A DNA stretch of 64,000 nt from Arthrobacter dokdonellae (GTDB lineage: Bacteria > Actinomycetota > Actinomycetes > Actinomycetales > Micrococcaceae): contig NZ_CP029642.1 of the NCBI RefSeq assembly GCF_003268655.1, positions 1,984,001 to 2,048,000 on the forward strand, in the 5' to 3' direction. The position numbers and the translations under genes are program-made. Below, piece after piece: positions 13,597 to 39,897 of this stretch. The notes beneath the pieces were generated by a model. That model searched no databases. It was not told the origin of the DNA and was given only the letters and a program-made list of their open reading frames with translations. Position 1 is the stretch's first letter, and each line of letters starts with the position of its first letter.

Positions 13597-14541
13597 TCAG
13601 TGGAGTGGGCCAGCCCAGCCGCGGGCGTGAAGGGCCCGGCGCACCAGCGCGATGGCGGCTTTTCCCTCATTGTCATCCAGCATGTCCTTGGTGATTCTTA
13701 GTTGCGTCCAGCCTAGCGAGGCCATCAGGCGGTTGCGGGCGTCATCGGTGGCCTGCTGTTTCACTCCCAGATGGTGCTCGCCGTCGTATTCAAGGGCCGT
13801 CTTCCATTCCGGCAGCGCCAAGTCCGGCCACGAGACGTGATTTCCGGCAGCATCCTTAACAACGTGGTTAAGTACGAGGGGAGGGATGCCTGCACGCTCC
13901 AGTGCGAGGCGAAGTCTCGTTTCCGGGGGCGAATCGGCGCCTGACCTGATCAGGTCGGCGGCTTCGCGGGCCTTGACGATTCCCCTTCGCCGGAACTCGA
14001 GTTTGACCGTTTGCCGCAGCGTGACGAGCTCTACAAGGGCCGCTCGTTTGGGACCGAAGATCCGGTCATGTTCGCAGACGAGGAAATCGCCGGCGGCGAC
14101 GAGATCATCGAGTTCGAGCATTCCGGCCAAATCCAGCCACGTCCGCAGTGGCGACGTCACATCCGTCCCCCGATGCCGGGCCACTTCGCCCGGCTTGAAC
14201 CTCGTGTGATGTCCCGTGACGCCCGCCCGCCACGGTGGATCGCTCGAGGCGGCCTTGGAAATGTGGATGTCAAAGCTGCCCGCCAACCAAGGCGGAAGCG
14301 GGATTCCCCACAGAAGCGCAGCAGTGCTATGGCTTGCGATTCCACCCGGCGTCAGCGCCAAAAGCGGGCGGACGCGATCAGCCAAGTCCTGCTGGACTCC
14401 CCACGGCACGCGGATGCCGCGGCTGGGCGTATGCAGGTCACGGCCCGCCGCGCGCCGTCGGCTAAGACCGCACTCGTCGGACTCTCCCAAGGTGAACGAT
14501 CGTCCACGCAACCATTCAGGCAGGGGCTGGGCGTTGGTCAT
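13597..14541 (-). CDS. Orphan DUF559/Vsr-like endonuclease-fold protein (paralog 1)
   Basis: 314 residues. The C-terminal part looks like a PD-(D/E)XK nuclease of the DUF559/Vsr-like group: SPPETRLRLALERAG, then WPDLALPEWKTALEYDGEHH with the acidic core, then RNRLMASLGWTQLRITKDML. The N-terminal ~190 residues resemble the wHTH/AbiEi-like region often found in actinobacterial proteins of this type. A paralog with the same architecture is at 38047-38994. No methylase, toxin-antitoxin partner or defence genes accompany it. It is bracketed by members of one repeat family (13571-13596 and 14631-14785) and shares with its paralog an identical 16-bp box 32 bases upstream of the ATG. Cellular role unknown. 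Confidence 0.75.
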   Translation of the reverse strand: MTNAQPLPEWLRGRSFTLGESDECGLSRRRAAGRDLHTPSRGIRVPWGVQQDLADRVRPLLALTPGGIASHSTAALLWGIPLPPWLAGSFDIHISKAASSDPPWRAGVTGHHTRFKPGEVARHRGTDVTSPLRTWLDLAGMLELDDLVAAGDFLVCEHDRIFGPKRAALVELVTLRQTVKLEFRRRGIVKAREAADLIRSGADSPPETRLRLALERAGIPPLVLNHVVKDAAGNHVSWPDLALPEWKTALEYDGEHHLGVKQQATDDARNRLMASLGWTQLRITKDMLDDNEGKAAIALVRRALHARGWAGPLH

Positions 14542-14573
14542 GGCTCCAGTCTGGCCCGAATTCCGTTTCGTTT

Positions 14574-14589
14574 TTTAAGTTATCCACAG
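14574..14589 (-). promoter_or_regulatory. 16-bp upstream box shared with the second endonuclease gene; contains a DnaA-box 9-mer
   Basis: On the minus strand it reads CTGTGGATAACTTAAA and includes TGTGGATAA, the complement of the consensus DnaA box TTATCCACA. It is identical to 37999-38014 and in both cases lies exactly 32 bases before the ATG of a DUF559-type gene. GATAAC could alternatively be a -10 element. Either way, identity over 16 bases with the same spacing indicates a conserved regulatory element. Confidence 0.6.
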
Positions 14590-14630: not shown

Positions 14631-14785
14631 GTGGGGGAGGTGGTGATCTCGAACTTCAACGGTGGGGGAGGTGGTGATCTCGAACTTCAACGGTGGGGGA
14701 GGTGGTGATCTCGAACTTCAACGGTGGGGGAGGTGGTGATCTCGAACTTCAACGGTGGGGGAGGTGGCGATCTCGAACTTCAACG
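14631..14785 (-). repeat. Tandem array, five 31-bp units
   Basis: Units start at 14631, 14662, 14693, 14724 and 14755 with no spacers. Four are identical and the fifth has one T-to-C change. The plus-strand core is GGTGGTGATCTCGAACTT; read on the minus strand it is the same motif as the copies at 10410 and 13571. The unit adjoining the response-regulator gene contributes its TGA stop codon (14780-14782). The array fills the gap between two minus-strand genes, downstream of the response regulator and upstream of the endonuclease gene. No spacers, so not a CRISPR. Confidence 0.95.
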
Positions 14786-15481
14786 GGCGCGGAGCCAGCT
14801 GTATTCCAGTTCCGGCCGGCCGGGCGATCCGTGGCGCGGTGCCTTCGCCGCGGAGCCGGTTTCCACCAAGTGGTCTAGGTAGCGGCGGGCCGTGACGCGG
14901 GACATCGCCAGCCCGGCGGCAACTTCGGTGGCGGAGGCGGCACGGCCTTGGATCCGCAGCCAGTCGGCCACGGCCCTGAGCGTTTCGGGCAGCATCCCCT
15001 TGGGCAGCTGGAGCCTCCCTCGCGGCCGCAACGTGGACAGGGCGCTGTCAATCGCATCCTGGCTGGTGTGCGTCCGGTCCGCCAGGGCGTAGTGGTAGCC
15101 GCGGTAGCTCTCCATTTTCTCCCGGAACGCCGCAAACGTGAACGGCTTGATCAGGTAGGCCGTGATGCCCAGGGCGATGGCCGAGCGCACCACGTGGATT
15201 TCCTGCACGGCCGTGATGGCCACGACGTCCGGCACCAGCCCGAGTCCGTGGACGCGCCGCAGCAGGTCCAGGCCGTGCCCGTCGGTCAAGTTCATGTCCA
15301 GCAGCATCAGCTCGATGGGCCGGGTTGCGGGATCGTTCAGGACGGCCAGCGCGGCGCCCATTCCGCCCGCGGTCGCGGCCACCTCGAAGCCCTCAAGGCG
15401 CCGCACATACTCGGCATGGGCGGCGAGCGCGACGGGTTCATCGTCCACCACCAGCACCCGGATGGGTGGGGATCCGATCAT
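14780..15481 (-). CDS. Response regulator, CitB/DcuR/DctR type
   Basis: 233 residues: receiver domain (about 1-125) with acidic pair Asp13/Asp14, phosphoacceptor Asp62 (LLDMNLTDG), Thr90 and Lys112 (YLIKPF), then a C-terminal wHTH (about 165-220; AAGLAMSRVTARRYLDHLV). This is the architecture of regulators paired with CitA/DcuS sensors. It overlaps the histidine kinase gene by 4 bases. The divergent dctA-type transporter is the obvious target. Its stop codon lies in the last unit of the 31-bp array. Confidence 0.93.
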   Translation of the reverse strand: MIGSPPIRVLVVDDEPVALAAHAEYVRRLEGFEVAATAGGMGAALAVLNDPATRPIELMLLDMNLTDGHGLDLLRRVHGLGLVPDVVAITAVQEIHVVRSAIALGITAYLIKPFTFAAFREKMESYRGYHYALADRTHTSQDAIDSALSTLRPRGRLQLPKGMLPETLRAVADWLRIQGRAASATEVAAGLAMSRVTARRYLDHLVETGSAAKAPRHGSPGRPELEYSWLRAR

Positions 15482-37902: not shown

Positions 37903-37917
37903 CCTTCTGCCAGCTAG

Positions 37918-37975
37918 CCCGCAATAGATGTCGTAAAACGTCGATTTTCGACGTATTTTCGACATCTTTTGCGGG
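37918..37975. repeat. 58-bp palindrome, left copy
   Basis: Arms CCCGCAATAGATGTCG and CGACATCTTTTGCGGG (15 of 16 pair), with an inner ACGTCGA/TCGACGT stem, so nearly the whole element folds. A second 58-bp palindrome with the same arms lies at 38985-39042, and the two bracket the endonuclease gene. Confidence 0.85.
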
Positions 37976-37998
37976 TTACTTGTGCGCGTCACGCGAGA

Positions 37999-38014
37999 CT
38001 GTGGATAACTTAAA
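37999..38014 (+). promoter_or_regulatory. 16-bp box identical to that of paralog 1, containing a DnaA-box 9-mer
   Basis: CTGTGGATAACTTAAA, identical to the minus strand of 14574-14589. It contains TGTGGATAA, complement of TTATCCACA. It ends exactly 32 bases before the ATG at 38047, the same spacing as in paralog 1, which also supports that ATG as the start. Confidence 0.6.
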
Positions 38015-38046
38015 CGGCCCGGAGCAGGACTTGCCATGATGTGGAC

Positions 38047-38994
38047 ATGTTCCATCCGCAGGAGTTTCCCCCGGAGTTGCATCTGGGGCCTTTCACCACA
38101 CGATTTGCCCAAGAACTCGGGGTTGGGCCCGGCCGGCTGAGGCACCGTGAAATCGTCAGCCTGAGCCGAGGCATCAAGAGCCTTGGCGGCAGCGACCTTC
38201 CGTTGGGCTTGCTGACGCGTCCCTACACACAGGCAACCGGGCATTCGGCGGCCTCCCATGCCACGGCCTTTGCCATCTGGATGCTGCCGGGTTTCCTTCC
38301 TGTGGCGGATTCCTCCCTGCTGCACATTTCACGGCAGGCGCCGCATGATGAACCGCGGCGCAAAGGTGTCTGCGGGCACACCACAAAATTTCGCGACAAT
38401 GAAGTCGTCTGCCTCGATGGGCTGTGGATCACCACGCGTGCGCGAACTTGGTTGGATTGTGCCCGCAGGATGAGTGTCGATGAGCTCGTCGTCGTCGCGG
38501 ACCACCTGATCCGGATTCCGCGCCCGGAGTTTGAGGGACGGAGTGAACCCTACGCCACCATCGTCGAGCTGGCGGCCATGTTGGAGCGGCACAAGGGCAC
38601 GCCGGGCATTCAAAAGGCGCGTGCGGCGCTGGCGCTGGCCCGCGTCGGGTCCGATTCGGCCCCCGAAACCCGTCTGCGGCTCGCACTCGGCAGGGCCGGA
38701 TTGCCGGAGCCGCAAATCAACGTCCGTGTGCAGCTTGCCCACGGCAGGTCCCGCACCCCGGATGCTTCGTTCCCGGAGTACCGCGTAGCCGTGGAATACG
38801 ACGGCGGCACCCATGGTGACATCGAACAGCAGGTCCGCGACATTCGGCGCCAGGAAGACTACGGAGATGCTGGCTGGATTGAGGTCCGTATCGGCAAAGC
38901 GCACATGCAGGATGACGCCAGGCAGGCCGTCCGGAAGATCCGCGACGCGCTGTACGGTCGTGGCTGGCGGGCAACGCAAAGTAACCCGCAGTAG
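38047..38994 (+). CDS. Orphan DUF559/Vsr-like endonuclease-fold protein (paralog 2)
   Basis: 315 residues. The C-terminal region (about 200-305) matches a DUF559/Vsr-like PD-(D/E)XK fold: SAPETRLRLALGRAGLPEPQ, PDASFPEYRVAVEYDGGTH, and RRQEDYGDAGWIEVRIGK. It parallels SPPETRLRLALERAG...ALEYDGEHH in paralog 1 (13597-14541). The N-terminal part (SRGIKSL, GHSAASHATAFAIWMLPGFL, TTRARTWLDCARRMSVDELV) resembles the AbiEi-like region. GTG at 38041 is an alternative start. The TAG stop lies inside the right-hand 58-bp palindrome. No partner gene for restriction or toxin-antitoxin function is visible. Confidence 0.75.
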   Translation: MFHPQEFPPELHLGPFTTRFAQELGVGPGRLRHREIVSLSRGIKSLGGSDLPLGLLTRPYTQATGHSAASHATAFAIWMLPGFLPVADSSLLHISRQAPHDEPRRKGVCGHTTKFRDNEVVCLDGLWITTRARTWLDCARRMSVDELVVVADHLIRIPRPEFEGRSEPYATIVELAAMLERHKGTPGIQKARAALALARVGSDSAPETRLRLALGRAGLPEPQINVRVQLAHGRSRTPDASFPEYRVAVEYDGGTHGDIEQQVRDIRRQEDYGDAGWIEVRIGKAHMQDDARQAVRKIRDALYGRGWRATQSNPQ

Positions 38995-39042
38995 ACGTCG
39001 AAAAAGCGGCAGGATTCGCGATTTTTCGACATCTACTGCGGG
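38985..39042. repeat. 58-bp palindrome, right copy
   Basis: Arms CCCGCAGTAGACGTCG and CGACATCTACTGCGGG (15 of 16 pair) and an AAAAA/TTTTT inner pairing. Its left arm encodes the final codons and TAG stop of the endonuclease gene. Same length and arms as 37918-37975, different core. It could act as a bidirectional terminator between two convergent genes. Confidence 0.85.
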
Positions 39043-39060
39043 CCAGTTGCGGCGGGAGGG

Positions 39061-39897
39061 TCAGCCGCGGTACAGGCGGCTTCGCGTGGCGTTTTGGGTC
39101 AGCACGGAGTCCAGCAGCTTGTCGAACAGGGCGGAGGAGTTCTTGGCCGAATCGCCGGGCCACTGGTGGATGGGATGCGCGGCCCCCTGAATCTGCTGCC
39201 AGTTCGCCTGTTCCGGAATGGTGGGGGAGAGCAGCAGCTCGCCAAACATGGTCTTCATCTCGCCCAGGCGGTAGCTGTGCTCGTTGGAGCCGCTGCGCAC
39301 GCGGTTCGCCACGATGCCCGCCGGCACCAGGGCAGGGGCGAACTCGCTGCGGAACAATTCGATGGCGCGCAGCGTCCGCTGCGTGCCGGCCACCGAAAAC
39401 AACCCGGGCTCGGCCACCAGCAGCACGCGGCTGCTGGCGGTCCACGCCATGCGGGTGAGCCCGTTCAGCGACGGCGGACAGTCAATGAGGACCAGCTGGT
39501 AGGGCGCCTTGCCGTCCCGGTCGGCGTTGGACAGGATGGTCGACAGGCGGCGCAGGTCGCGCCGTCCCAGGTCGGGGCGGTCGTAAATGCCGCTGAAGGC
39601 CGAGCCCATGGCGACGTCGAGCACGGGCAGCGGCGCGCCGTCGTGCTTGTGGGCGGCCAGCCAACCGGACGGGACCACATTGGCGGCAAGGTCCGCCTTT
39701 CGCGCGCCCTTGATCATGCGCCCAATGTCCTGCTGCCCGGCCGGGTGGACCCCCAGCCCGGTGGTGGCGTCTGCATGGGGATCAAGGTCAATCACCAGGG
39801 TGGGAAGGCCTGCGGCCAGTGCTGCCGAAGCCAGGCCGAGCGTGACAGACGTCTTGCCGACGCCGCCCTTGAGGCTGCTGATGCTCACTACTTGCAC
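39061..39897 (-). CDS. Orphan ParA/MinD-like ATPase
   Basis: 278 residues with deviant Walker [21 protein letters not shown] at the N-terminus, [16 protein letters not shown], and [17 protein letters not shown]. No ParB or parS is recognisable nearby. It belongs to the actinobacterial ParA-like orphan class and stands alone, convergent with the endonuclease gene and divergent from gcvP. Start is GTG at 39895-39897. Function beyond ATP-dependent surface positioning cannot be inferred. Confidence 0.85.

Follow-up and report, generated by a model that had tools for sequence, protein, structure and literature searches.

One promoter geometry, with natural variants in orientation and distance, recurred in 164 of 206 nuclease-like genes related to two genes of the window (the whole stretch of 64,000 nucleotides that was analysed, corresponding to C1:1984001–2048000 of the 4.53 Mb genome). 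The promoter architecture is real and widely conserved, and DnaA is the best candidate for the activator. The set is best read as a phased single-DnaA-box promoter class, the activator of which would be DnaA or a protein of the same specificity. The box is probably a single, mostly isolated DnaA box of the high-affinity type, acting as the activator site of a predicted leaderless promoter.

The first-pass annotation had reported an identical 16-mer before both nuclease-like genes of the window. Both copies of CTGTGGATAACTTAAA were located, at 37999–38014 on the plus strand and at 14574–14589 on the minus strand, and no other match existed in the window even with up to three mismatches. The number expected by chance was 0.04, and two matches were reached in none of 100 shuffles (three mismatches allowed). 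The reported gap of 32 nt to the ATG was exact at both loci (ATG at 38047 and 14541), and the sequences between box and ATG proved unrelated when compared. Each box also held the announced perfect DnaA 9-mer, TGTGGATAA, the reverse complement of TTATCCACA; these were its only two exact copies in the window. In both, TTATCCACA agrees exactly with the 9-mer consensus TTWTNCACA, which the available text of PMC12371093 gives for the DnaA box. Across 73 forward promoters of the home family, the bases following the TGTGGA core were T in 67, A in 73, A in 69, and C in 69. The conserved unit was the 11-mer CTGTGGATAAC, which contains the perfect DnaA box, and strong conservation elsewhere was limited to the first 10–11 bases (Table 1). 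The full 16-mer was rejected as the unit, as the core alone recurs elsewhere. The TTAAA tail is common to one further paralogue (L021), is absent from the other boxed host-genome paralogues displayed, and is incidental. The hexamer TGTGGA occurred 31 times in the window (19 on the plus and 12 on the minus strand). When starts of ORFs of at least 100 aa with a coding-like GC pattern were counted, it stood 45–49 nt before a start at the two boxes and before one internal ATG of the 38 kb gene; the three matches in reverse orientation all preceded internal or doubtful starts.

Table 1. Coordinates of the two boxed promoters and their genes in the window.
Feature	Position	Strand	Remark
Core CTGTGGATAAC of first box	37999..38009	+	DnaA-box 9-mer 38000–38008
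TTAAA tail, first box	38010..38014	+	not conserved as a whole
−10-like CATGAT	38035..38040	+	−12 to −7 of start codon; base frequencies across promoters
AbiEi-like + Vsr/DUF559-type nuclease-like gene	38047..38994	+	predicted leaderless start ATG 38047
Core CTGTGGATAAC of second box	14579..14589	-	9-mer 14580–14588
TTAAA tail, second box	14574..14578	-	sequence match
−10-like CAGACT	14548..14553	-	−12 to −7 of start codon; base frequencies across promoters
Second AbiEi-like + nuclease-like gene	13597..14541	-	AlphaFold2 pLDDT 91.7; C-terminal part resembles I-Bth0305I, Vsr

In the whole genome, CTGTGGATAACT was present at seven exact sites and its reversed control at none. At every one of them, an ORF began after a gap of 32–34 nt, measured from where the 16-mer ends. 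These ORFs encode five AbiEi/DUF559-type proteins, a Ser/Thr kinase (L005), and a DUF1877 protein (L006). A sixth nuclease paralogue, L021, carried GTGTGGATAACTTAAA at 32 nt. A protein search gave nine nuclease matches in the host genome, and six of the eight listed were the boxed genes. The link with the nuclease-like genes had been said to fall if the 16-mer were equally frequent before unrelated genes. The kinase and DUF1877 genes go some way in that direction, but only part of the way, because the box, though not nuclease-specific, belongs to a small promoter set.

The spacing was followed in nuclease genes collected by protein similarity, from order and class samples and from named records. 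The named records contributed the best 80 of 284 places; judged by title, a single one fell outside Arthrobacter, Pseudarthrobacter, and other Micrococcaceae. From 220 rows, 206 were used, 11 duplicates and three rows without an in-frame start being dropped, and start codons were picked blind to the position of the box. TGTGGA was found 45–49 nt before the start in 114 of the 206 genes, against a mean of 0.17 and a maximum of 2 in single-base shuffles. At 45–50 nt, the count was 115 forward, 49 genes had a reverse box only, and 42 had neither. The reverse hexamer TCCACA preferred distances of 47–49, 56–59, 66–69, and 84–87 nt before the start; these peaks held 43 genes against 0.39 in shuffles (largest 2), the distances having been named after the histogram was seen, so that this control is post hoc. 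The best-fitting period was 9–9.5 (vector length 0.60) and 10.5 fitted worse (0.32); helical phasing is therefore only approximate, and the steps of about 9–10 bp between the reverse boxes are at most suggestive of a single helix face.

A phased box of either kind was present in 27 of the 29 families sampled, many of them represented by one to three genes; this bears out, in genes ascertained by protein, the expectation that the spacing would be conserved in other genomes. The families without it were f100 (two genes) and f101 (one gene), and f22 had it in 4 of 13. With the home family set aside, 120 genes remained, in which TGTGGA was the most frequent positioned hexamer (42), followed by CTGTGG, which overlaps it (39), and by TCCACA, the reverse complement of TGTGGA (26). 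Three nuclease copies on Arthrobacter plasmids also had the box: in two of them it lay 47 and 46 nt upstream of where the match begins, and in the third 60 nt before a match beginning at residue 7.

The sequence between the box and the start codon showed a second signature. An A at −11 together with a T at −7 was found in 65 of the 115 forward and 30 of the 49 reverse-only promoters (95 of the 164 boxed), when the same pair at other offsets averaged 3.4 (largest 20 of 115) and 1.1 (largest 5), respectively. The pair was also present in 15 of the 42 unboxed nuclease genes, with a mean of 1.2 at other offsets. A Shine-Dalgarno-like motif preceded one forward, two reverse-only, and one unboxed gene. 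The −10 element stops 7 nt short of the start codon and Shine-Dalgarno motifs are nearly absent, so that these promoters look leaderless in sequence; given a −10 signature at −12 to −7, transcription probably begins at the start codon itself.

The forward box occupied a fixed position relative to these promoter elements, with the centre of the 9-mer at about −44 and the end of the conserved core at about −38. It would thus lie upstream of the transcript, beside the −35 region, which makes both an RNA element and GATAAC as the −10 unlikely. The first-pass annotation had offered GATAAC as a −10, and this gave way to the separate −10-like elements of Table 1. That the box is a sigma-factor element, either a −10 formed by GATAAC or a −35 formed by the box as a whole, would suit the fixed spacing to the start; the separate −10 signature, the end of the conserved core near −38, and the reversed boxes make this extremely unlikely. 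The −35 variant was rejected on the last point, as occurrence in two orientations argues against it. Activator promoters of class I and class II (CRP type) have a site adjoining the −35 region, at preferred upstream positions. The box near −44 and its preferred positions are alike in this respect; the present promoters differ in having an asymmetric single site of replication-initiator type, and a spacing period nearer 9–9.5 than 10.5.

The proteins encoded behind the two boxes of the window have AbiEi-type N-terminal parts (PADLOC, E 4.6e-12 and 1.5e-8). In the AlphaFold2 model of the 14 kb gene product, the C-terminal part resembles I-Bth0305I and Vsr: Foldseek matched 3r3p with E 9.3e-3 (TM 0.78 by target length) and 1cw0 with E 0.019. 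No Foldseek match of this model reached E 0.001, and the top rank by E-value went to a mitoribosome chain with a TM of 0.28, apparently unrelated. Vsr and I-Bth0305I differ from the present proteins, in which an AbiEi-like part is fused on. With the Pfam profile DUF559 (PF04480), the window proteins scored 14.7 and 20.1 bits, below the curated cut-off of 20.6, which paralogue L007 cleared with 27.6 bits. AbiE type IV toxin–antitoxin systems share the AbiEi-like N-terminal part; here, in contrast, it is fused to a Vsr-like nuclease domain, and a scan of four neighbouring genes, which encode a ketoacyl synthase, a response regulator, MerR, and a ParA-like protein, gave no match to the AbiEii nucleotidyltransferase, the adjacent toxin of AbiE systems. 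The earlier description of both genes as orphans therefore fits.

Repeats lie near both genes. A 31-bp tandem repeat in five copies (99% matches) covers positions 14631–14786, just upstream of the second box, in the gap that separates this box from a response-regulator gene. Two 71-nt repeats in inverted orientation (37911–37981 and 38979–39049, 76% complementary) flank the 38 kb nuclease gene, and the downstream one contains a hairpin with 24-nt arms that are 92% complementary; the pair is possibly a mobile or REP-like element. A ParA-like ATPase gene at 39061–39897 is convergent to this nuclease gene.

AbiEi antitoxins are known autoregulators, and the AbiEi-type parts of the window proteins raise the question of whether each nuclease uses its N-terminal domain to bind the promoter of its own gene. 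The distribution of the box makes such autoregulation very improbable: the box also stands before kinase, DUF1877, lipoprotein, and clpB-like genes, and is thus not specific to nucleases, and the sites are mostly single and asymmetric. Among 30 kinase loci collected by protein similarity, 23 had TGTGGA 46–49 nt upstream of a start in frame, with every ATG or GTG in that frame accepted as a start, a choice that favours the box; in the other seven the box was not at leaderless distance. Genome G046 (100% complete) had no nuclease match at E 0.001, and its kinase gene L047 kept the box at exactly 32 nt, on which ground autoregulation by the nuclease was rejected. A nuclease match was likewise absent from G021, in which a kinase-like gene was boxed at another distance.

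A census of the 13-mer CTGTGGATAACTT gave 146 sites in 49 of 61 family genomes, and one site for the reversed control. All 146 exact sites were inspected for downstream starts and neighbouring boxes. Leaderless spacing, meaning a start codon 34–38 nt past the 13-mer that opens an ORF of 50 aa or more, was found at 44 of them, which by similarity cluster comprised 22 kinase, 15 nuclease, and two DUF1877 genes and five single cases, some doubtful. The clusters without this spacing included a lipoprotein-like gene (eight sites), clpB (five), and the replicative helicase gene dnaB (three), the last two recognised by eye. At least three further TGTGGA boxes were present within 300 bases of 48 of the 102 non-leaderless sites, as at origins, against 2 of the 44 leaderless ones; the box before leaderless genes is therefore usually solitary. 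Further afield, a 17-mer with Y was present in 1 of 296 genomes of the phylum, the box drifting in other families, and in 48 viral stretches. Boxes outside oriC have been proposed as DnaA titrators in E. coli (PMC12371093, available text). With that precedent, the sites could titrate DnaA or be neutral remnants, in either case with no influence on the gene behind them; we regard this as most improbable, since the distance to the start codon and the −10 is fixed, in two orientations and in many families.

Which protein reads the box was approached through the TGTGGA sites downstream of dnaA, which had the consensus CTGTGGAYAAC (186 sites in 27 of 29 genomes); the promoters were alike. Across the 18 single substitutions of TGTGGA, tolerance in the oriC regions (27 of 29 genomes) and in the phased promoters was correlated (Spearman 0.80, p 8e-5), although the 18 variants total 24 promoter cases and the correlation therefore rests on small counts. 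Genome by genome, the oriC and promoter boxes covaried weakly, with a rho of 0.44 (p 0.026) at one box position and of 0.25 (p 0.22) at the position after it, in 25 genomes in which GC content is a confounder and duplicates are still included. The same promoter architecture might be served by another actinobacterial protein with a DnaA-box-like site, a reading that we consider rather unlikely. Home-family conservation exceeds the 9-mer and speaks for it: of 73 forward promoters, 60 had a C before the 9-mer and 69 had one after it. TTCTGC also occurs at many kinase and some nuclease promoters, and the f22 nuclease genes are mostly unboxed. The sites of the oriC regions, however, also carry a C at either flank (63% and 44%), they tolerate the substitutions tolerated at promoters, and the same 13-mer was found within DnaA-box clusters. 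DnaA control, as put forward in the first-pass annotation, thus gains from the box consensus, from substitutions matching the oriC-region boxes of the lineage, and from the kept spacing; the restriction to nuclease genes fell away.

In the proposed mechanism, DnaA would bind immediately upstream of a −35 element that is weak or lacking, contact RNA polymerase, and recruit it. Expression of the nuclease-like proteins and of the conserved Ser/Thr kinase would then track replication status through free DnaA, by its amount or its nucleotide state. According to the available text of the review PMC8203912, DnaA boxes occur at promoters in E. coli, B. subtilis, and Caulobacter, DnaA being an activator or a repressor, and for lambda-derived plasmids the review cites a potential direct contact of DnaA with the beta subunit of RNA polymerase. 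DnaA boxes at promoters are the likeness to the DnaA-activated promoters in that text; the present set differs from them in its mostly solitary box, near-invariant distance, and predicted leaderless transcripts, in its many paralogous targets conserved across an order and beyond, and in its reverse-orientation class at other preferred distances. The mostly solitary boxes also contrast with E. coli DnaA, which according to the title of PMC11317965 prefers pairs of sites; the Introduction of that article describes transcription activation by DnaA as poorly understood.

Taken further, the promoters may form a conserved actinobacterial DnaA regulon, in which a stereotyped, orientation-flexible single-box leaderless promoter would tie the multicopy AbiEi-nuclease family and the Ser/Thr kinase to the state of the initiator; we put this forward tentatively, at somewhat less than even chances. 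Such a regulon could, for example, arm repair or defence upon disturbed replication, although activation by DnaA, like any tie to replication stress, defence, or repair, is here inferred. It would give a first handle on a large uncharacterised nuclease-like family, expression coupled to the replication state. As the geometry recurs with natural variants, the contact with RNA polymerase is open to direct test. In the literature searched, with subscription journals mostly outside, no paper was found that linked DUF559 with a DnaA box, with leaderless transcripts, with AbiEi, or with promoters in actinobacteria; TTATCCACAG with promoter gave nothing related, judged by title, and a search for a DnaA regulon in Arthrobacter turned up a genome description only.

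Some sites of the survey stood apart from these promoters. In clpB-like promoters (L041, L056, L057, L077, and L081), the same box lay about 18–19 nt before a TACACT/TAGACT element, which overlaps ACTCAA repeats. These repeats resemble a HAIR heat-shock operator. A Firmicutes-labelled contig in a Sporosarcina beigongshangi record (L316) carried a nuclease gene that resembles those of Micrococcaceae and has its box at 48 nt; the record is probably contaminated. In the host genome, clusters of DnaA-box-like sites were visible at about 529.3 and 446.3 kb of C1 (L173 and L174), away from dnaA at about 513–514 kb; it is possible that they mark origin-linked or titration loci.
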